Source of the DNA: Candidatus Zixiibacteriota bacterium | Lineage (GTDB): Bacteria; Zixibacteria; MSB-5A5; GN15; FEB-12 | Assembly (NCBI GenBank): GCA_029860345.1 | Contig: JAOUBJ010000012.1 | Coordinates: 1-64,000, forward strand | Reading direction: 5' to 3' | Length of the DNA: 64,000 nucleotides | In this document: positions 43,035-54,137 of the stretch, piece by piece | Numbering within the stretch: position 1 is the first letter of the stretch | Layout of the letters: the number at the start of each line of letters is the position of its first letter | Made by a program: the position numbers and the translations under genes | Notes under the pieces: generated by a model | Told to the model about the DNA's origin: nothing | Databases searched by the model: none | What the model saw: only the letters and a program-made list of their open reading frames with translations

Positions 43035-44084
43035 TCAACTATTACCGAACACCCGTGCAGCTTCGACCAAATATGCGATCTCCCTGCCAGGCGCCTGTCG
43101 CTCCGCTTCGAGCAAGGCTATTTTCCGGTGTCGCAACGAGAAAACGGCCTTCACAGCGTCCTTGAACTTGAGCTTAATGACGTCTTCTGCGACTTCCGCA
43201 ATTAGTGTAATAAGAGTTTCCGCGGTGGTGCTTTCAATCTTCAACTTGGCAAGCTTCATGTGCTCAGTGTACTCATGAGTTAAGTAGTCGAGTTCTTGTT
43301 CCAGTTCAGAAACAGATGTCGTATCCACGGCCAGCTCTTTGGCGACTTTACCCATCCAGTAGCGAAAGTCGAAGAGCCGTCTCTGTGTGTCAGGATGTCC
43401 ACGGAAATCCATGACAGCTTCCCAAGGCGTATCGGGGGACGGCGTTGGCATGTTCTTGATTACGACGTTGGCGACGACGTTTTCCCGCGCAGATGGCATA
43501 AGCAGGTCGTCGTGGTGCGGGTAATGGATCAAAGGAACAGCATCAAATTCTGGTTTCCCGCTCAACGAGACACTCTTCGCACGCGCCACAGAACACAAGA
43601 ATGCGGAGTGAAAATCACGTTGGTGCGTTTCAAGGTCGGTGGATTGAGCACCACCGAGTCTCCCATGCAACTTCTTGAATAGCATATATACGGACTCGGA
43701 CACCTGCTGCCTATTAATCTGGGCAATTGCGGCGAAGCTATTCACGAGGTCCTGAACGGACTGGCGGCTTGACATCTGTTCTAGGAGCCTCGGTTCCTTT
43801 GAGGCGTTACTCAGTATGACACTCAGGATCGCGTTAACGGACGCATGGTCTGTGTATTGCTGTTCAAGCGGACCTAGTTCTGCGTCGAGCCCCGCGTTCT
43901 GAAATGCGTCGATGACGACACCTTCTTGTGTCAAGTAGTCAATTGCCGCAGCAGCCTCTAGGTCGTGTATATCAGCGCGCGTTTTCGACAAGCTGCCTAC
44001 GGCAATATGGTCGAATAACAGGACATCTTGTTTCGTGGGAAAATGAACATCGAGATGTGTGACACCTATGAACTTCTTCTTCAC
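43035..44084 (-). CDS. Unknown protein
   Basis: Predicted 349-aa cytosolic protein without a signal or membrane helix. It is mostly helical and ends in a charged coil (TLITLIAEVAEDVIKLKFKDAVKAVFSLRHRKIALLEAERQAPG). The N-terminus MKKKFIGVTHLDVHFPTKQDVLLFDHIAVG resembles the openings of uncharacterised proteins from defence or mobile regions, but I recognise no family. The GTG start has GAGG 8 nt upstream. It lies on the 5' side of the tmRNA gene, 152 bp away, with no integrase nearby. Sporadic occurrence is likely. Confidence 0.6.
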   Translation of the reverse strand: MKKKFIGVTHLDVHFPTKQDVLLFDHIAVGSLSKTRADIHDLEAAAAIDYLTQEGVVIDAFQNAGLDAELGPLEQQYTDHASVNAILSVILSNASKEPRLLEQMSSRQSVQDLVNSFAAIAQINRQQVSESVYMLFKKLHGRLGGAQSTDLETHQRDFHSAFLCSVARAKSVSLSGKPEFDAVPLIHYPHHDDLLMPSARENVVANVVIKNMPTPSPDTPWEAVMDFRGHPDTQRRLFDFRYWMGKVAKELAVDTTSVSELEQELDYLTHEYTEHMKLAKLKIESTTAETLITLIAEVAEDVIKLKFKDAVKAVFSLRHRKIALLEAERQAPGREIAYLVEAARVFGNS

Positions 44085-44323: not shown

Positions 44324-47300
44324 TCACCTACACGGCACGAAGCGGACAGAGGCGGTGTCGTCTTTGAGGATGCGGGTCATCGTTTGAAGGGTGCGTTCGA
44401 TGTCGTCGGAACTGTTGCGCCGGCCCAGCGAAAAACGGACGGCACAGTGGGCTTCGTCCTCGGAGAGGCCCATAGCCAACAGCGCGTGCGATGGTTTCGG
44501 CGATCCTGAACGACAAGCCGAGCCGGAGGAGATAGATACACCTTTTTGATCCAATGCGAGTGTCAATGACTCGCCGCGCGTACCGGGCAGAACCATGCAA
44601 AGAGTGTTGGGCAAACGCGGCGCGGTGGAGCCCAGCGTACGCGCATCCGGCAGTAAGTCGCGGATACCTGTTTCGAGTTGGTCGCGGAGGTCCTGGATGC
44701 TGTCGATATCCGGCAGATGTTTGTGAGCCGACTCAGCCGCCGCACCGAGACCGACGATATTGGCCAGGTTCTCGGTGCCGGAACGCAGGCCATACTCCTG
44801 CCTGCCGCCGTGGATTAGCGGATCGATCTCGATCTCCTTGCGTACATAGAACGCGCCCACACCCTTCGGTCCGTACAGTTTGTGTGCAGACAGAGAAAGC
44901 ATGTCGACACCAAGCGCGTCAACATCGACAGGTATCTTTCCGACTGCCTGGGTTGCATCGGTGTGGAAGATTGCGCCACGTTCATGCGCAATTGAAGCAA
45001 GTTCAGTAACAGGTTGGATGGCGCCGGTTTCGTTGTTAGCCATCATGAGACTTACCAGAAGTGTCTGATCGGTAAGCGCCTCTTTGAGAGCCTGCGGATC
45101 GATAAGGCCGCTTGAGTCGACCGGCAAGAACGTCACCTCGTAACCGAACTTCTCAAACCAACGACATGTTTCCAACACAGCCGGGTGTTCGATGGTGGAT
45201 GTAATGATATGCTTCTTATCGTTGAAGTTGGCGAATACGACGCCTTTGATGGCCAGGTTGTTTGCTTCCGAGCCGCCGCCGGTGAATACGATCCGTCGCG
45301 CCGTGCAGTTCAGCAGTTGCGCTAATCGTCGTCGTGCATCTTCCAACGCCGCGCGGGCCTGGCGGCCTTCGTGGTAAATCGCCGACGGGTTGCCGTACTC
45401 GTTATCCATGTAGGGTTGCATGGCGTTCTGAACGTCCGAGTCAAGATAGGTGGTGGCGTTGTGATCAAGGTAGATGCGGTGCGCCGATAAATCGGGTCTG
45501 TCCTCACTGATAGCACTCTCTGCACCTTGTTCGCCTGAGTCGACATCCACGGCGGCGACTTCCTGATCGACTAATGACACTTCACACAAGAGTGCTTTGT
45601 ATACCGGGAAGCCTGAGATCGGATCGTACTGGTTGAGGTCGGTGAGGTCGTTGATATTGCACTCCTGCCACGCCTTGGGACCCACCGGCCCGCCGCCGCC
45701 CATGTTGGCGTCGATCTGTCCTGGACCGATATCGTCGGTGACCAGCGCCCGCATGGATACCTGGCCGCGCGCGGTGGTGACGTGCACGAGGTCGCCATTG
45801 TTGATACCACGCGCTTCGGCGTCCGTCGTGTTGATGGTAACAGTCGGTTCCGGTCTGAGTTTCAACAGCGATTCGACACCGTGGTGCTGTGTGCGAAAAT
45901 CTGTTACGACCCGCGCGCCGGAGTTGAACACCAACGGAAAGCGATCACTCATCCCCGGCTGCGATTGCGGACTCTCGCCCGGTTCGGTGTAGACCGGCAG
46001 TGGTTCGTACCCATGTTCTTCGAGGATCGACGAAGCGATTTCGAACTTGCCGGATGGCGTGTCGAAGCCCGGTTTTCCGTCGGGTCGCAGGCCACCCTTC
46101 TCCCATTTCTTGAACTCGGTCATGACACTCGGCGATTGTACAACGCCGCCGGCCTTGCGAACATCGTCCAGCGTGAATCCGGTATTCGCAAGCACTCTCT
46201 CAAACAGTTCTTCTTCGGTTTGCGGATAGAGATGCCCATAGCCGAGCCGCTTGGCCAATTCGGCCATGATGAGAAAATCGTTGCGCGCCTCACCGACCGG
46301 TTCGACAACTTTCTCGCGCAGCCGGAAGATCGGTCCGTAGGTCATGTAGCTGTCGATTTCGTACATGGTCGTTGCCGGCAGCACGATATCGGCGTAGGCA
46401 CAATCGGCGGTCAGTTGACGGTCGATGCATACGACAAAGTCGAGAGCGTCGAGTGTTTTCCGCCAGATATCCGGTTCCGGCCACGACGTAGAGATCGATG
46501 CGCCCTGGATAACCAACGACCTGATGCGATACGGTTTTCCCTCAAGCACCGCCTGCGGCAGCGCTATGGCATGCGACTCGCCGCGGTAGGAGCTATAGAC
46601 GGGAAAACGGTCGCGGGCCAGCGCCTTCTTGAGATCGGGGTTGGCGATGTGTCCTGAGCGGTTCAAGGGGAAATGGTTTTGACGCATGGTAAAGCAGCGC
46701 CCGCCGGGAACATCCAACTGTCCGGCCAGCGCCCACAGAACCATGGTGGCACGAATGGTCTGTACGCCACCTTCGGAATACTCCAGCCCGCTGTACATTA
46801 TAGGCGCTGCACCGTGGGCAGAAGCGATCCGCCGAGCCAGTGACACTATAGTATCCGCGGGCACGCCGGTGATCCGCTCTACAACTTCCGGGTTGTAATG
46901 CTGCACATGGCGGGCGAAGTCCTCGAAACCAACAGTCCAGTCCTTCACGAAAGCGTCGTCGATAAGTTCTTCCTCGATCAACGCGCGGCACAGTCCAAGG
47001 GCCAGAGCGCCATCGGTACCGGGACGGATAGGTATCCACTCGGCCTCGGTCAGCTTGGCAGTGCGGGTGCGGCGGGGGTCTATGACAACGACCTTTGCAC
47101 CCCGTTTCCGGGCGCCCAGAACCCGTTCGTGGTCCAGCGGTGGACAATCAGTGGCCGGGTTGGCGCCCCAAATTACGATCAGTTCGGCGTTCTCCAGATC
47201 GGAGTACATGTTGAACAGCATGCCGCCCATGGTGACGTGCGGCGCAATCATCGCAAAGGCGACATAGCAGAGCGCTCCCACGCCCATTGTGTTGGGTGAC

Positions 47301-47743
47301 CCGAATGGAAAAAGTACGCTGGAGGCCGAGGACACGGCCACTCCTTCAGGCTGGAAGATATCACACAGTGAAAGTTCAAAACTGCCTCGACCGGTGTAGA
47401 TGCAGGTTGCTTCCGGTCCGGACTCGGCTTTGATACTGTTCAATCGCTCAACGATAGTCTCGTATGCTTCATCCCAGGAGATTCGTTCAAAGTCGTAGTT
47501 GCCTCTGGCTCCTTTGCGACGCATGGGGTAGAGCAGACGGTCCTTTGAGTACACGATGTCGGCTGAGTGTTCGCCCAACTTGCAGATGGTTCCAAACTCA
47601 GAAGAGTCATCGGCCTTTACCTGGTCGATACGTCCATCGGCATCATACTGAACCGTCACCCAGCAACCAGCCGGACAGATACCACAAAGGGAACGGCGTT
47701 TCTTGTTCGCCCACTGTTTTAGTGTTCCACTTTCGGAGATCAC
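44324..47743 (-). CDS. Molybdopterin oxidoreductase-cysteine desulfurase fusion (metallopterin-dependent ergothioneine synthase type)
   Basis: Predicted 1139-aa cytosolic enzyme. Residues 1-735 are a DMSO-reductase-superfamily bis-pterin enzyme: the [4Fe-4S] motif is C20-x2-C23-x3-C27-x26-C54, ELIVIWGANPATDCPP and VVVIDPRRTRTAKL bind the pterins, and C159 (GVGALCYVAF) may ligate the metal. After a linker, residues 757-1130 are a NifS/IscS-type cysteine desulfurase with PLP lysine K955 (SAHKLYGPKG) and persulfide cysteine C1077 (SSGSACRSG). This order matches the Caldithrix abyssi ergothioneine synthase, which adds cysteine-derived sulfur to hercynine without oxygen. The egtD gene lies 15 bp upstream. 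The start is GTG with GGAGG 4 nt upstream. Formate dehydrogenase-like activity is the alternative. Confidence 0.88.
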   Translation of the reverse strand: MISESGTLKQWANKKRRSLCGICPAGCWVTVQYDADGRIDQVKADDSSEFGTICKLGEHSADIVYSKDRLLYPMRRKGARGNYDFERISWDEAYETIVERLNSIKAESGPEATCIYTGRGSFELSLCDIFQPEGVAVSSASSVLFPFGSPNTMGVGALCYVAFAMIAPHVTMGGMLFNMYSDLENAELIVIWGANPATDCPPLDHERVLGARKRGAKVVVIDPRRTRTAKLTEAEWIPIRPGTDGALALGLCRALIEEELIDDAFVKDWTVGFEDFARHVQHYNPEVVERITGVPADTIVSLARRIASAHGAAPIMYSGLEYSEGGVQTIRATMVLWALAGQLDVPGGRCFTMRQNHFPLNRSGHIANPDLKKALARDRFPVYSSYRGESHAIALPQAVLEGKPYRIRSLVIQGASISTSWPEPDIWRKTLDALDFVVCIDRQLTADCAYADIVLPATTMYEIDSYMTYGPIFRLREKVVEPVGEARNDFLIMAELAKRLGYGHLYPQTEEELFERVLANTGFTLDDVRKAGGVVQSPSVMTEFKKWEKGGLRPDGKPGFDTPSGKFEIASSILEEHGYEPLPVYTEPGESPQSQPGMSDRFPLVFNSGARVVTDFRTQHHGVESLLKLRPEPTVTINTTDAEARGINNGDLVHVTTARGQVSMRALVTDDIGPGQIDANMGGGGPVGPKAWQECNINDLTDLNQYDPISGFPVYKALLCEVSLVDQEVAAVDVDSGEQGAESAISEDRPDLSAHRIYLDHNATTYLDSDVQNAMQPYMDNEYGNPSAIYHEGRQARAALEDARRRLAQLLNCTARRIVFTGGGSEANNLAIKGVVFANFNDKKHIITSTIEHPAVLETCRWFEKFGYEVTFLPVDSSGLIDPQALKEALTDQTLLVSLMMANNETGAIQPVTELASIAHERGAIFHTDATQAVGKIPVDVDALGVDMLSLSAHKLYGPKGVGAFYVRKEIEIDPLIHGGRQEYGLRSGTENLANIVGLGAAAESAHKHLPDIDSIQDLRDQLETGIRDLLPDARTLGSTAPRLPNTLCMVLPGTRGESLTLALDQKGVSISSGSACRSGSPKPSHALLAMGLSEDEAHCAVRFSLGRRNSSDDIERTLQTMTRILKDDTASVRFVPCR

Positions 47744-47758
47744 CGCACCTCCATCCGC

Positions 47759-48784
47759 CTATTGTTTTGATTCCGTAGAATCAACTTCCACCTTGTTTAC
47801 CTGCCATACCGAGTCGGTAAAGTATCGTTTGCCGTCGAAGAGATGTTCGACGACTGAAAACCCCGTATCGGCAGCCAGTCCATTGATGTCTGCATCATGA
47901 TACTTGTATGAGTATTCCACATGAATCGGCTCCCAGGGATCAAAATGAAACGACCGTCCTATCATCTCGATAAACACATCCTGAGCAACCGTGCTGACCA
48001 GATAGCTCTCCATGGCGCCGGTAAACACGTCGTAGGTGCCAAAGTGCCGAAACTTGGAAGTGTCGAACTGCCCGCCGAGTTCTGTGTTGATGCGCCTCAG
48101 CATGTTGATGTTGAATTCTGCGGTGACACCCTCTGAATCGTTGTATGCCTTTTCGAGCAAGTCGATATCTTTTTTGAGGTCGAAGCCGATTAACAGGTGG
48201 TCGTTGTTGCTGAGACAGTTCCACAGATTGCGCAAAAAGAACCGTGCATCGCGATGATTGAAGTTGCCGATGTTGGAGCCGAGAAAGAGAACGAAATTGG
48301 AGCGGTGTGAACTGTTACCAAGCCACGTAATACCCTCGAAGTAATCACACACCAGACCGTTGATGTTCAGGTCGGGATAGCGCAGGCGATAGTCCTCGAG
48401 CAGGCCCTCCAGCGCAGCTTTTGAAATATCAATGGGGACATATTGAAACTCCGCCTTCCGCCCAAGAAGTTCCTCGATGATGATGCGTGTTTTGCTGCCG
48501 TCGCCGGGACCGAATTCCACCAGGTTGAACGGTGTTGCGGCGGCATAGCCGGCGATCTTGGCTTTGTTACGTTCGAGGGTTTCATGCTCACATCGCGTGG
48601 GATAGTACTCCGGCAACCGGGTGATCAGGTCGAACAATCGGCTGCCTTCGGCGTCGTAGTGGTAGATAGTCGGGATAGACTTGCGGGCTTCCGACAGCCC
48701 GACCAGAACATCCAGTGCAAAAGCTTCACAGTCGGTGAAGGTGGCGCCGTTGTCGGTTCTGTTTAGAACATGAATCTGCTGCAC
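47759..48784 (-). CDS. egtD: L-histidine N-alpha-methyltransferase EgtD
   Basis: Predicted 341-aa cytosolic SAM-dependent enzyme that trimethylates histidine to hercynine, the first step of ergothioneine synthesis. GLSEARKSIPTIYHYDAEGSRLFDLITRLPEYYPTRCEHETL is the EgtD N-terminal signature. LVEFGPGDGSKTRIII is the SAM motif, and FVLFLGSNIGNFNHRDA and LLIGFDLKKD follow the family order; the length is usual. The GTG start has GAAGG 6 nt upstream. It sits in the operon directly before the molybdopterin/desulfurase fusion, which supplies the sulfur step, and after the transporter genes. No sulfoxide-synthase EgtB is present. Confidence 0.93.
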   Translation of the reverse strand: MQQIHVLNRTDNGATFTDCEAFALDVLVGLSEARKSIPTIYHYDAEGSRLFDLITRLPEYYPTRCEHETLERNKAKIAGYAAATPFNLVEFGPGDGSKTRIIIEELLGRKAEFQYVPIDISKAALEGLLEDYRLRYPDLNINGLVCDYFEGITWLGNSSHRSNFVLFLGSNIGNFNHRDARFFLRNLWNCLSNNDHLLIGFDLKKDIDLLEKAYNDSEGVTAEFNINMLRRINTELGGQFDTSKFRHFGTYDVFTGAMESYLVSTVAQDVFIEMIGRSFHFDPWEPIHVEYSYKYHDADINGLAADTGFSVVEHLFDGKRYFTDSVWQVNKVEVDSTESKQ

Positions 48785-48924
48785 GGGCGCCTTCCCAAAT
48801 TCGACAGGCAGGGTTGCTGTTGTTCGTACCGGTTCGGTGCGGTCCTTGTTCTGTTGGACGGGTAGACCCTCCGTGTCTTAGGGTTGCTGATGATACTGTC
48901 TACTAACAGAACGTCCATAGTTAT

Positions 48925-50448
48925 CTATTTGTTGGCCGTCTCAATCGACCTGTTCAAAACGACGGCGGCACTGTCTACCGAAGCATGGTCGACATCGACC
49001 AGTTTGTTACCGGTTCGCATGAGGTCGTCATCGATGGCGCCAACGAGTTTTCGTAACTGTACAACCACATCCGGCCTTTGCGCCGCCTGTGGCGAAAGCA
49101 GAAGCACGGCATCGTAAGGCGGCAAGGCCTGGCCGGGGTCGGCAAGCGCGGTCAGATCAAAGGCGACAATGCGGCCGTCGGTGGAGTAAGCCGATATTAC
49201 CTCGACTTGCTGTTGGTTGATCGCTGAGTACATTAATGTGGGATCGAGCGTGACCAATTCTTCAAACTTAAGGCCATAGGTATCTACCAGCGCCTGCCAT
49301 TCCGGACGCTGGAAAAACTCGTAGTCGCTACCCATGGCCATATTGCCGGATACCGGGGCCAGGTCGGCAATTGTTCGCAGGTTGTGTTGTTCGGCCAGGG
49401 TGCGCTTGACAGCCAGGGCATAGGTGTTTTCGAATCCGACCGGTCCCAGGCAGACGATTCCATGTTCTTGCTTAAGCCATGTAGTCATCTCGCTAAGGAT
49501 GGTGTCGCGCGAAGGCATATCGGTTCGCTTCATTACATTGGTCCAGATGGTGCCGGTGTAATCAACGTAACAATCGACCGAACCGCCGGCCAGGGCTTCA
49601 AACAGAATTATCGAGCCCATACCCGAACGGAGATCGACCGGCAAACCGGCTTCTTTTAGGCGGGTGGCTATCACTTGAGCGAGAAGGTACTGCTCGGTGA
49701 AAGGCTTGCTCCCGACGACAACCGGTTCGGAGGAACCAGATGCCCTCGAACTCGGCAATACCGGAATCAACGAGACAACCAGCAGAACCAGCGCGGCAAT
49801 GCCGACAAGTGAACCAAGTAGTCTACTGCGCCTGGTCACGGCCAGTTCGGCCAGACGAATGAGTTGATCGATACAGATGGCCAGCAAGGCGGCAGCGATG
49901 CATCCCACTATTATAGCTACGACGTTCTGTGTTTGCAGACCGCTGAAAACATAATTGCCGAGCGACGTGGCACCGACCGGGGTGGCCAAGGTAGCGGTAC
50001 CTACCACCCAGACCGCGGCCGTGCGAATCCCGGCGATTATCACCGGCAGGGCCAGCGGTAGTTCCACTTTGACCAGCATCTGACGGTCGGTCATGCCGAT
50101 GCCGCGAGCGGCTTCTGTTACGGCCGGATCAACAGAGTTAACACCGGTTACCGTGTTGCGCAAAATGGGCAGGAAACTATACAGAATCAAGGCCAGTACA
50201 GCCGGGGCAAATCCAATGGTCCCCAAAAGAGGAACCATCAGCGCCAGCAAGGCCAGCCCCGGAATCGTCTGCAAGACACCGGCGATGGTAAGCAAAGGCC
50301 ATTGCAGAACTCTGATCCGGGTGACCATGAGTCCGAAAGGTACGCATACCAGAATACCGGCGCTCAGCGCCAGCAGAGTGAGCAACAGATGATTGCCCAA
50401 ATACTCCGGGAGCAGTTCCAGTTGCGGCATGATCGCTTGGTTGTTCAC
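48925..50448 (-). CDS. egtU: ABC transporter permease fused to substrate-binding domain (EgtU-type)
   Basis: Predicted 507-aa inner-membrane protein. Residues 1-235 form an OpuC-like permease with six or so helices and the ATPase-contact EAA loop (EAARGIGMTDRQMLVKVELPLALPVI). Residues 245-500 form an osmoprotectant-type binding domain facing the periplasm (VVVGSKPFTEQYLLAQVIATRL, VDCYVDYTGTIW). This fusion of permease and binding domain is the EgtU layout known from H. pylori and S. pneumoniae, where it imports ergothioneine. Its stop is 140 bp before egtD. Choline or betaine uptake is the alternative; the neighbouring biosynthetic genes favour ergothioneine. Confidence 0.85.
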   Translation of the reverse strand: MNNQAIMPQLELLPEYLGNHLLLTLLALSAGILVCVPFGLMVTRIRVLQWPLLTIAGVLQTIPGLALLALMVPLLGTIGFAPAVLALILYSFLPILRNTVTGVNSVDPAVTEAARGIGMTDRQMLVKVELPLALPVIIAGIRTAAVWVVGTATLATPVGATSLGNYVFSGLQTQNVVAIIVGCIAAALLAICIDQLIRLAELAVTRRSRLLGSLVGIAALVLLVVSLIPVLPSSRASGSSEPVVVGSKPFTEQYLLAQVIATRLKEAGLPVDLRSGMGSIILFEALAGGSVDCYVDYTGTIWTNVMKRTDMPSRDTILSEMTTWLKQEHGIVCLGPVGFENTYALAVKRTLAEQHNLRTIADLAPVSGNMAMGSDYEFFQRPEWQALVDTYGLKFEELVTLDPTLMYSAINQQQVEVISAYSTDGRIVAFDLTALADPGQALPPYDAVLLLSPQAAQRPDVVVQLRKLVGAIDDDLMRTGNKLVDVDHASVDSAAVVLNRSIETANK

Positions 50449-51221
50449 GCCTTGGGGTCCTTCGTGATAATCGCCGCCAGCCGTTCCGCCTGCCGCCGGG
50501 GGGTGTCCAGAAGTTTTTCGACATACGGGTCGTGACCTGAGGCCAGCAGTTGCTGCGGCGTCCCCATGGCCAGTATGCGTCCTTGTTTCATAACTGCGAT
50601 GCGGTCGGCCAGGGTCAACGCTTCGGTCATATCGTGCGTGACCATGACCACCGTTAGTTTCAGTTCGCGCTGCAACTTTCGGAATTCATCGGAAAGCTCG
50701 GCCCGTGTGATCGGATCAAGGGCGCCGAATGGTTCATCCATCAGCATCAGTTTGGGCCGTGCCGCCAGAGCGCGGGCAACACCGACTCGTTGCTGCTGTC
50801 CACCGGAAAGCTCACGAGGGTACCGAGCCCCATACTCGGTCGGCGTCAGACCCACCAGGTGCATCAATTCGTCGACCCGGTCCGACACTTCCGATTGCGA
50901 CCAGCCGAGCAGTTTGGGCACGACACCGACATTTTCCGAAATCGTCATGTGTGGAAAAAGCCCGATCTCCTGAAAAACATAGCCGATCTTGCGACGTAGA
51001 GTGACCGCATCGGTCTGCATGATGTCGCGCTCTTCGATGGCGATGCTGCCCGATGACAACGCAATGAGCCGGTTGATCATTTTCAACGTGGTCGTCTTGC
51101 CGCAGCCGGATTCCCCCAGGAGCACTACAAGTTCACCCGTCGCTATCTCGCAGGTGACATCGCGCACCGCCCAGGTGGATTGGCCATCGTAGGACCTGGA
51201 TATCTGCTTAAGCGATATCAT
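50445..51221 (-). CDS. egtV: ABC transporter ATP-binding protein (EgtV-type)
   Basis: Predicted 258-aa cytosolic ATPase energising the permease encoded next. Walker A is GESGCGKTT, the signature is LSGGQQQRVGVARAL, Walker B is PKLMLMDEPFGALD and the switch histidine lies in VVMVTHDMTEA. It lacks the CBS-domain tail of osmolyte-gated OpuA/ProV ATPases. The ATG at 51221 has AGGA 7 nt upstream; the longer frame to 51422 runs into a dispersed palindrome and is rejected. Its stop overlaps the EgtU start by 4 nt (ATGA), so they are translationally coupled. It is the first gene of the operon. Confidence 0.88.
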   Translation of the reverse strand: MISLKQISRSYDGQSTWAVRDVTCEIATGELVVLLGESGCGKTTTLKMINRLIALSSGSIAIEERDIMQTDAVTLRRKIGYVFQEIGLFPHMTISENVGVVPKLLGWSQSEVSDRVDELMHLVGLTPTEYGARYPRELSGGQQQRVGVARALAARPKLMLMDEPFGALDPITRAELSDEFRKLQRELKLTVVMVTHDMTEALTLADRIAVMKQGRILAMGTPQQLLASGHDPYVEKLLDTPRRQAERLAAIITKDPKA

Positions 51222-51771
51222 CGATGGTCCTATCGTGCTATGAACTCCATGCCCATAATGGATGAAGATAATAGACGACCGTATGCGAGTCAACCGACAG
51301 CACCTGGAATTCCCTGTGGGGCATTGGCAATGACGGCAGTCAGGAGTTTTGTCACTACTCTCTGCGGACCTTGTTGATGAAAACCCAGATTGCAAGTGGT
51401 GTTGGGCGACCCCGCCCGACACCCCGCGCCACGCGGGGTTTTTCGCGCTTCGCGCGTCGTCTCTTTCTGCTAGCCGTTGCCAAGATGTCCTCGGTTCAGG
51501 TATTAAGGCTGTCAGGCGAATTGGGGGTATCGTGACATAGGTAACAGGTGTGTCGGGTCTTGGACGCGCCGAAGGCGTGGGTGTGACCCGACACTTAACT
51601 CCTTGTTTGACAGTGGCGGCGGGTCACACAAATCACGCGTTCCGCGTGATTCGCAAGATCCACCGCAACACACCAAAGGGACTCTCGCAACGTTCTCCCC
51701 CACATAAAACAACGCCGCAGCGGTTTCCCGCTACGGCGTGCGCGTCGCAACAACTCTGACGCAACGCCCCG
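51222..51771. repeat. Intergenic region with family A elements upstream of egtV
   Basis: No gene. Positions 51399-51422 are a short family A palindrome (GTGTTGGGC ... GCCCGACAC). Positions 51550-51594 are a full 45-bp family A element with perfect 10-bp arms GTGTCGGGTC and GACCCGACAC. A GGCTGTCAGGCGA half-palindrome lies at about 51507. The egtV promoter should be in 51230-51330, where I see no clear boxes. Confidence 0.65.
51702..51739 (-). terminator. Terminator of the propeller-dockerin gene
   Basis: ACGCCGTAGCGG-gaaa-CCGCTGCGGCGT on the minus strand forms an 11-of-12-bp stem with a GAAA loop and is followed by TGTTTTATG. It lies 32 bp after the stop at 51772. Confidence 0.75.
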
Positions 51772-53817
51772 CTAAGAGCATGGCGGCGGGATAGGTCCGC
51801 CTGAAAACATATAGTCAACGAGATAGACCAGATCGGCGATATCCGGTCCCGCGCCGTTGCCGTCGATGTCGGCCGCCTGGGTGCAAAAAGGTGCCTGGCC
51901 GCCTGAGAACATGTAGTCGACCAGGAAGACCAAGTCGGCGATGTCCGGTCCGGCGCCGTTGTAATCGAGATCCCCCCGGATTACACAGCAAAAGTTCGGG
52001 TTTGCCCAGTCGAGAAACTCCAGCGCCTGAGCCATCAGAGTGTCGCGCGGCGTGTACTGAGCGTTACCGTTGACGACCGCTTCCAGTCCGAACGAGCAGA
52101 AAAGCAGACGGTACTGGGCACTGTATGACACGGCTGCAAAGCCCGACTGATTGTAATACTTCAGCTCGGCCACAGCTTCCCCCAGCGGTGTTATCTGATC
52201 GGTAGCCGACTGGTTGGAGGCGCCGCCGGCTCCGCCGATGACAACATAGTCGGTAGTGGGGTGCAACACTTCGGCGCCCGGCGCACTTTCCAGGAACGTG
52301 GTCGTGTGGGTCTTGATATATTCAGACATTAGGTAGCCATTGAGGAAGGCCGGATCATCGTTGTTCAACTGGGCGGCGATTCCCTGACCGGTCAACAACA
52401 GGCTGCCGCCTGCGTCCATAAATTTCCTCAGGACTGCAACCTGCTCAGCGTCCAGCGGGTCTGCATGATAGTCGCCGGTGAACCAGAGTACCACGCCGTA
52501 GTTGCACAAGACGGCTGAGTCCGGGCTGGTATACTCTGTGCTGATCCAGCGATCATACAAAGTTCCCAGACTCAACAACGACATTTGCAGGTAGCTGGAC
52601 GAATTATCCCCACGGGTGTCGTCAACCAGCAGTACGCTGGCGCCGCCGATGGCCTTTTCCAGGCTGGTGACCACGGTGTCGACGCCATAGTCGGTGGTTG
52701 CGATTATTTCAAGCGAAAAACTGGTCATCTGCGACTCATAGGCTGCGTCTATCTCAAAGCTCAACGGTGCGCTTTGGTTGTCTCTCACCTCGCTGGGCGG
52801 TACGGCGCCCAACTGGACTGATCCGGTAACGATTGTCAAGCCGCCGTCACCGGTCGATAGATTGAGCGTCACTTCAGTCAGCGCGGCTACATGCTCGTTC
52901 AAATTGTCCACGACCAGTTCAATGGTCTCACCGGCTTCAAGCACACCGTCGCCGTCGCCGCCCACATCGTCGGAGAAATGATATCCGACCACACGACTGC
53001 TGAAGCGCATCGGAATGAGTGTAAGCTCGTTGGCGCCATAGTTGGGGATGGCCATCTCATACTTGTACGGATTGTAGAAAATGTCGGCTGGGTTGTTGTG
53101 ACCGTTGGAGGTTCGTGTGCGTGGATATTCAAAGTCGGCATCCCAACAGTAGATGGCGTCCGAGACCCAGTCGGATACATACCAGTTACCGTGTGCATCA
53201 CGAGTGATACCGTCGGTGGTAGACAGTCCGGTCGCCACCACTGTAGTGAATGTAGAGTCCTCGAGATTTACCTGGACGATAGGCGCGCCGACCGCTTGCT
53301 CGTTGAGTAGCAACACACGATTGTTGGCGGCATCGAAGTATATCCCGTTGGGCTGGTCCAGTCCGGTGGAAATGAACGTCGATACGTTGTGGTCGCTCAA
53401 ACGAATCTTATAGAGTCTATAGTAGTCGTAGTCGGTCGCATACAGATACCCGGATGTGTCGTGCGTCAGGTCGTTGACCATGCCCACGCCGGGAATAGGA
53501 ATGTAGAAAATCATAGTATCGCCGGTCAAGTCATACCCGACCACACCGGCATACTGCCCGTATGACGAGGATGCGTACAACGTGTCTCCAATGATGTGTA
53601 AACCGGTCGTGAATGAGAGCTGCGTGTTGAAATAGCTCTGCTCACCATCGGCGTTGATCTGAATTATGTTGCCGTCACCGACATTGGACACCAGGTAACG
53701 ATCACGAGGCGCGTCATACTCCACGCTTTCGGGTTCGTTCAACAGGTTGGCTGCTGTCGCCAGGCCGGGGACCATCGGCAGTAACAAACAGACTGTTGCG
53801 ATCGCAATTCTAAACAT
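51772..53817 (-). CDS. Secreted propeller protein with C-terminal dockerin-like doublet
   Basis: Predicted 681-aa exported protein. A signal peptide (1-22, ATAA) precedes an NHL/SMP-30-like beta-propeller (residues about 25-270: LLNEPESVEYDAPRDRYLVSNVGDGNIIQIN, repeated YVSDW and YATDY blades). An Ig-like domain (about 290-400) and a DUF4350/glutamine-amidotransferase-like flavodoxin-fold segment (VLLVDDTRGDNSSSYLQMSL ... LRKFMDAGGSLLLTGQGIA) follow. The end carries two calcium-loop repeats (RGDLDYNGAGPDIADLVFLVDYMFSGG and ADIDGNGAGPDIADLVYLVDYMFSGG). GGAG lies 5 nt before the ATG at 53817; the frame to 53964 is not used. Confidence 0.82.
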   Translation of the reverse strand: MFRIAIATVCLLLPMVPGLATAANLLNEPESVEYDAPRDRYLVSNVGDGNIIQINADGEQSYFNTQLSFTTGLHIIGDTLYASSSYGQYAGVVGYDLTGDTMIFYIPIPGVGMVNDLTHDTSGYLYATDYDYYRLYKIRLSDHNVSTFISTGLDQPNGIYFDAANNRVLLLNEQAVGAPIVQVNLEDSTFTTVVATGLSTTDGITRDAHGNWYVSDWVSDAIYCWDADFEYPRTRTSNGHNNPADIFYNPYKYEMAIPNYGANELTLIPMRFSSRVVGYHFSDDVGGDGDGVLEAGETIELVVDNLNEHVAALTEVTLNLSTGDGGLTIVTGSVQLGAVPPSEVRDNQSAPLSFEIDAAYESQMTSFSLEIIATTDYGVDTVVTSLEKAIGGASVLLVDDTRGDNSSSYLQMSLLSLGTLYDRWISTEYTSPDSAVLCNYGVVLWFTGDYHADPLDAEQVAVLRKFMDAGGSLLLTGQGIAAQLNNDDPAFLNGYLMSEYIKTHTTTFLESAPGAEVLHPTTDYVVIGGAGGASNQSATDQITPLGEAVAELKYYNQSGFAAVSYSAQYRLLFCSFGLEAVVNGNAQYTPRDTLMAQALEFLDWANPNFCCVIRGDLDYNGAGPDIADLVFLVDYMFSGGQAPFCTQAADIDGNGAGPDIADLVYLVDYMFSGGPIPPPCS

Positions 53818-54137
53818 CTTCTCCGTCTCCGTCTTTTCAGGTTTTGTGCGAACCACCACCGGGGGCTGGGTTGAACCGCTCTCCGTTTCGGCGTCCAACG
53901 TGGCTGCTCGCGTCAAACTTGGATCGATCCTCTTAACATGTTCGATGGTTCCGAAGCTGCTCAAATCTTACACAGGTGGATTGTGATTGTTATGATTTTG
54001 ATACCGGCACGGTTGGGACAGGTGGCCCATCCGCTTGGGGAGTGTTGAAAAAGTCCCCAAACTCAGTTGCGTCAGGTCTTGCGAATCTGCGCGAGCAGAT
54101 TTGTGTGACCTGACGATCTTGTCCAGCATGCAGTTAT

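Follow-up and report, generated by a model that had tools for sequence, protein, structure and literature searches.

How might a bacterium of the phylum Candidatus Zixiibacteriota make ergothioneine, and what would an ABC importer be doing beside the enzymes concerned? The question is raised by a minus-strand run of four genes in a 64,000-nt stretch of contig JAOUBJ010000012.1 (assembly GCA_029860345.1; hereafter the window), which encode an ATPase, a permease fused to a binding domain, the histidine methyltransferase EgtD and a molybdopterin protein fused to a cysteine desulfurase (Table 1). We consider it very probable that this four-gene unit is an ergothioneine operon following an O2-free route. 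Gene order, family membership, residues, phylogeny, genomic linkage and co-occurrence were observed, and the chemistry is carried over by analogy from CaMES, the metallopterin-dependent ergothioneine synthase (MES) of Caldithrix abyssi (PMC9516567). A first-pass annotation of the window had proposed the same pathway, EgtD acting with a Caldithrix-type synthase, and this is borne out by the place of the fusion in the MES clade, its nine landmark residues and the EgtD pocket.

The fused synthase and its relatives

The fusion matches the Pfam/NCBIfam profiles Molybdopterin and Molydop_binding and then Aminotran_5 (NifS/IscS-like), with Molybdop_Fe4S4 slightly below its cut-off (20.1 versus 22.7 bits); residues 1–735 make up the molybdopterin (MPT) module and residues 756–1139 the cysteine desulfurase. 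Over 1137 residues it is 68.5% identical to a protein from a C. abyssi metagenome-assembled genome (MAG), the landmarks of which match the published CaMES numbers exactly if its ninth residue is taken as the start, and the alignment to the Caldithrix synthase that had been proposed as a check thus finds all nine landmarks kept. At a constant offset of +6, window residues C20, C23, C27, C54 and C159 are CaMES C14, C17, C21, C48 and C153, and at a constant offset of +3, K955, C1077, C1100 and C1138 are CaMES K952, C1074, C1097 and C1135. In CaMES, Cys14/17/21/48 are taken as Fe4S4 ligands, Cys153 is required on the metal, Lys952 for pyridoxal phosphate (PLP) and Cys1074 with Cys1135 for the sulfur relay, while mutation of the conserved Cys1097 costs merely about two-fold (PMC9516567). 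The MPT module of the window protein accordingly has Fe4S4 cysteines 20/23/27/54 and metal ligand Cys159, and its desulfurase has PLP Lys955, persulfide Cys1077, Cys1100 and, in the C-terminal tail, Cys1138. All nine are invariant in an alignment of 38 full-length fused MES, and so is one further cysteine, Cys720 (window 45584–45586), located where the MPT module ends and also retained in MES homologues that have no desulfurase. Cys720 is possibly a sulfur acceptor of the MPT module; the main text on CaMES makes no mention of its equivalent (PMC9516567).

In an AlphaFold2 model of the fusion (mean pLDDT 84.8), the predicted fold of the MPT module resembles acetylene hydratase 2e7z (TMt 0.84) and that of the C-terminal module NifS/IscS/Nfs1 (TMt up to 0.96). 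Confidence in the model is lowest in stretches that include 1076–1081 and 1130–1139, which hold the relay cysteines Cys1077 and Cys1138; this fits mobile sulfur-carrying loops and is not proof of them.

A scan of a genome collection with the MPT module returned 141 relatives, from which 80 loci were kept (including that of the C. abyssi MAG protein), giving 81 MES modules with the window. In a maximum-likelihood tree these 81 group together (SH-aLRT 99), the set being tight and the outgroup branches long, and they are separated from acetylene hydratase, formate dehydrogenase, polysulfide reductase, the five paralogues of the window's genome and other MPT proteins. The phylogeny called for by the first-pass annotation thus puts the fusion beside the Caldithrix enzyme among a further 79 MES, not with formate dehydrogenases or acetylene hydratases, and on the tree and the MES residues together, assignment to FdhF, Ahy or PsrA was rejected. 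Its sequence assigns the fusion to the metallopterin-dependent ergothioneine synthases, an enzyme type already described.

Anammox bacteria, archaea and numerous further lineages were found to have MES homologues. The anammox examples come from Scalindua, Brocadiaceae, Jettenia and Kuenenia (loci L026, L028, L030, L032, L033, L034 and L044); a literature search found, among the papers available to it, none tying ergothioneine to anammox bacteria or Zixibacteria. Five homologues (Table 1) are only 720–757 aa long, end after the MPT module and have no desulfurase in the locus, and four of them adjoin egtD. They occupy three places among the fused MES in the tree, a scatter that suggests repeated loss of the desulfurase; CaMES itself depends on having its desulfurase in cis (PMC9516567). 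In the three archaeal loci of this kind a gene resembling flavin mononucleotide (FMN) reductase follows MES–egtD (L036:10415-11065, with matching ORFs in L039 and L045), and its product is a possible electron partner.

EgtD, the other enzyme of the route, scores 313.5 bits against Methyltransf_33 (PF10017) and 294.1 against the TIGR03438 equivalog (cut-off 290.9), has solved EgtD structures as its best PDB matches and is the sole Methyltransf_33 protein of the genome. In the alignment it retains Y39, Y56, N166, Y206, E282 and S284 (Mycobacterium smegmatis numbering), which we take to be the histidine-binding residues of the M. smegmatis enzyme, so that the histidine-binding residues whose loss would have counted against the first-pass annotation are kept; the position of Mycobacterium M252, variable among homologues, is Ser. 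That annotation had also reported neither EgtB nor EanB. For EgtB this holds throughout the genome by profile search, the sole match (26 bits versus a cut-off of 360) being a protein kinase that carries an FGE-sulfatase domain as a fusion, which was rejected; for EanB it holds as judged solely through rhodanese architecture, two single-domain rhodanese ORFs (160 and 180 aa) and a weak match inside a MoaE–ThiF protein being unlike EanB. The MoaE–ThiF protein and five other molybdopterin-family members encoded in the genome suggest that the cofactor is made.

By analogy with CaMES, we propose that EgtD would methylate histidine three times to yield trimethylhistidine (TMH, hercynine). The desulfurase module would draw sulfur from cysteine via PLP on Lys955 and carry it as persulfide on Cys1077 and tail Cys1138, and this persulfide would recharge a metal-sulfido group on the bis-molybdopterin guanine dinucleotide (bis-MGD) cofactor held by Cys159. 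The metal-sulfido group would then sulfurise C2 of the TMH imidazole, forming the C–S bond without O2. The importer would probably bring in a histidine betaine, either ergothioneine or hercynine.

The operon and the module shared across the phylum

The ATPase and permease-fusion genes overlap by 4 nt (50445–50448), and gaps of 140 bp and 15 bp separate the permease-fusion gene from egtD and egtD from the MES gene; on recomputation, this layout agrees exactly with the earlier description, and the domain content given there agrees with the Pfam/NCBIfam profiles. The identical four-gene order recurs in two further genomes of the class amid flanks unrelated to those of the window, and the run is thus not a chance arrangement; of the relatives sharing this operon, those with a name are Candidatus Zixiibacteriota.

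Table 1. Features of the window, and MES homologues ending after the MPT module (loci prefixed L)
Feature	Coordinates	Strand	Size or placement	Basis
MES (metallopterin-dependent ergothioneine synthase) fusion	44324..47743	-	1139 aa	domains, residues, tree, fold
EgtD, L-histidine N-alpha-trimethyltransferase	47759..48784	-	341 aa	family profiles, PDB matches, pocket residues
ABC importer permease fused to type F-III quaternary-ammonium substrate-binding domain	48925..50448	-	507 aa	
ABC importer ATPase (ProV/EgtV type)	50445..51221	-	258 aa	ORF and family profiles
Promoter-like site TTGACT-17-TATCTT	51265..51293	-	about 44 nt 5' of ATPase start codon	consensus match only
Desulfurase-less MES homologues	L036:7099-9285, L039:1918-4107, L045:3123-5312, L050:374-2536, L053:485-2758			

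The ATPase ORF spans 50445–51422 with an ATG start at 51221, and the promoter-like site upstream, from a consensus scan that returned 8 sites against 3.7 expected, is possibly the operon promoter. Neither flanking gene (43035–44084 and 51772–53964) has a Pfam match; the product of the latter carries two DIADLVxLVDYMFSGG-type repeats at its end.

Within the phylum, sampled as 132 Zixibacteria-like genomes, MES occurs in 3, EgtD in 22, close relatives of the importer in 18, and EgtB above cut-off in 12 (a further three score below). EgtD is present in 17 of the 18 importer genomes, against 22 of 132 overall (P about 4e-16, uncorrected for kinship), and lies within about 2 kb of the importer in 14 of them, a co-occurrence and adjacency that favour a role for the importer in the pathway. 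Importer, EgtB and EgtD stand together in six clusters (L120, L121, L122, L125, L129 and L130), and no genome holds both MES and EgtB (P 0.036). Three further importer–EgtD clusters have no adjacent sulfur enzyme (L118, L119 and L135, in G033, G034 and G122); a divergent EgtB-like gene lies elsewhere in G033 and G034 (338–341 bits, below cut-off), and in G122 a profile search found no EgtB-like gene.

In the EgtD tree the window copy falls inside a group with the phylum's EgtB-partnered EgtDs, apart from most MES-operon EgtDs of other phyla, and is sister to an EgtD of its own family that has EgtB about 11 bp downstream. This suggests that MES replaced EgtB in a resident importer–EgtD module, which we infer to be the simplest reading; possibly, an older MES was lost instead. 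Across the phylum, importer and EgtD form a common module that comes with either EgtB (O2-dependent) or MES (O2-independent).

The importer and the competing explanations

The permease fusion carries BPD_transp_1 and OpuAC and the ATPase ABC_tran, and the order of transmembrane and then substrate-binding domain (SBD) is the EgtU/OpuF topology, the SBD taking up about residues 236–507. With positions of Streptococcus pneumoniae EgtU (SpEgtU; PMC9732360) transferred via aligned homologues, not via the pneumococcal sequence itself, the SBD keeps the cage (Y297, N341, Y343, Y421 and Y445), the carboxylate contacts (K248, T300 and R381) and E377, the equivalent of the imidazole-contacting Glu375 of EgtU. 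Membership of the pneumococcal-type EgtU group was rejected on the signature G244/F293/Y337; Helicobacter pylori EgtU (HpEgtU) also departs from it (Ser, Tyr and Phe), and the signature is thus not universal. Taken by itself, the SBD fits ergothioneine, hercynine or glycine betaine alike, with no ligand singled out. Genomic context links the transporter to the pathway. Considering that context, we lean modestly towards ergothioneine or hercynine as the ligand.

Several points weigh against the operon as proposed. Ergothioneine formation by the window protein is a prediction; the exclusion of MES by EgtB is weak, with three MES genomes and P 0.036; and the absence of EanB is read from rhodanese domains alone. 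For the importer, F250, Y297 and F339 stand where SpEgtU has G244, F293 and Y337, the SBD is nearer to glycine-betaine ProX (39% identity) than to solved EgtU (30–32%), and a poorly resolved importer tree leaves its place unsettled.

These last observations bear on the most serious rival, that the importer is an ordinary glycine betaine osmolyte transporter travelling with egtD and that the ergothioneine unit consists of EgtD and MES only. The scores of the SBD (Archaeoglobus ProX 185 bits, Lmo1422 131, 8dp6 126) and its ProX-type Phe at the G244 position favour such a transporter. However, it would have to be reconciled with the 17 of 18 importer genomes that have EgtD and the 14 that have it adjacent, with a cage-base Asn as in both EgtUs where ProX has Asp, and with the genome having no PF04069 protein besides the importer fusion. 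Moreover, two other importer types with the reverse SBD–permease order, 30–35% identical, also adjoin EgtD–MES in Scalindua/Brocadiaceae, Gemmatimonadota and a Myxococcota MAG. We therefore judge the osmolyte explanation unlikely. In the wider set, such a binding domain is encoded in the flanking sequence retrieved for 10 of the 81 MES loci; among the MES genomes searched and the window's, 10 of 27 PF04069 matches adjoin MES, against about 0.1 expected at random, several being close relatives. The MES-adjacent SBDs fall into three or more distantly related types, two of which have the reverse order.

Much less probable are two rivals that concern the enzyme. A product other than ergothioneine, such as thiohistidine, selenoneine or another imidazole thione or selenone, draws on a substrate range that is unreadable from sequence and on the use of fluorinated TMH by MES (PMC9516567); against it stand the adjacent EgtD, which belongs to the histidine trimethyltransferase equivalog, and an operon with no selenium genes, and we think it very improbable. 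Scarcely credible, in our view, is a fusion that is some other oxidoreductase, like formate dehydrogenase or acetylene hydratase, with a desulfurase that merely matures its own cofactor: the MPT module is homologous to both enzymes, yet the protein lies within the MES clade with every MES landmark, 15 bp from egtD, and ergothioneine production in E. coli has been seen with four MES homologues of diverse origin (PMC9516567).

Returning to the ergothioneine operon, its widest form holds that importer and EgtD are a fixed scaffold on which EgtB and MES interchange, and that the importer is a ProX-like ergothioneine/hercynine transporter without the pneumococcal EgtU pocket. We hold this combined view tentatively, as possible and not quite probable.

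Oxygen, and comparison with known systems

The first-pass annotation had called the operon oxygen-independent, which stands for the chemistry and does not necessarily extend to the host: the genome encodes a full caa3-type cytochrome oxidase cluster (L113:465-4147; G000:C1 near 477593). CtaD/CoxA-type matches occur in 20 of 50 genomes that have an MES homologue (8 above cut-off), which counters the idea that MES marks strict anaerobes. C. abyssi has oxidase genes yet does not respire O2 (PMC5317091), and such genes are thus no proof of aerobic life. Anaerobic-type ergothioneine synthesis is hereby placed in a new phylum, the genome concerned also encoding an oxidase that reduces O2. The novelty lies in the surroundings of the enzymes, where an importer accompanies EgtD regardless of which sulfur enzyme is there, and, probably, in the exchange of an O2-dependent for an O2-independent enzyme. 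The shared module makes testable both the cargo of a pathway-adjacent importer and the exchange of these enzymes between lineages.

Compared with CaMES (PMC9516567), the window shares the two-module architecture, the nine landmarks at constant offsets and an EgtD in the genome; it differs in that egtD and MES stand after an ABC importer, none being described in that paper, and in a host that encodes a caa3-type oxidase. With the phylum's EgtB clusters it shares a clustering of the same importer and EgtD families, and in L122 EgtB lies about 11 bp after EgtD, in the position taken by MES in the window, whereas sulfur addition there falls to O2-dependent EgtB, absent from the phylum's MES genomes. 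As in EgtU/EgtUV (PMC9732360; PDB 8dp6, 4z7e and 7txk), the ATPase gene overlaps a permease–SBD fusion with an aromatic cage, Lys/Thr/Arg carboxylate contacts, a Glu375 equivalent and Asn at the cage base; the window SBD differs in its 30–32% identity, in Phe, Tyr and Phe at SpEgtU G244, F293 and Y337, in a one-residue deletion in the loop near T275, and in belonging to a host predicted to produce ergothioneine. Finally, Archaeoglobus ProX (1sw1), the closest solved structure by sequence (39%), shares the Lys-Pro-Phe motif and the four-Tyr cage, in contrast to which the window importer has Asn for the ProX Asp at the cage base, a shortened loop, a fused permease and linkage to egtD.

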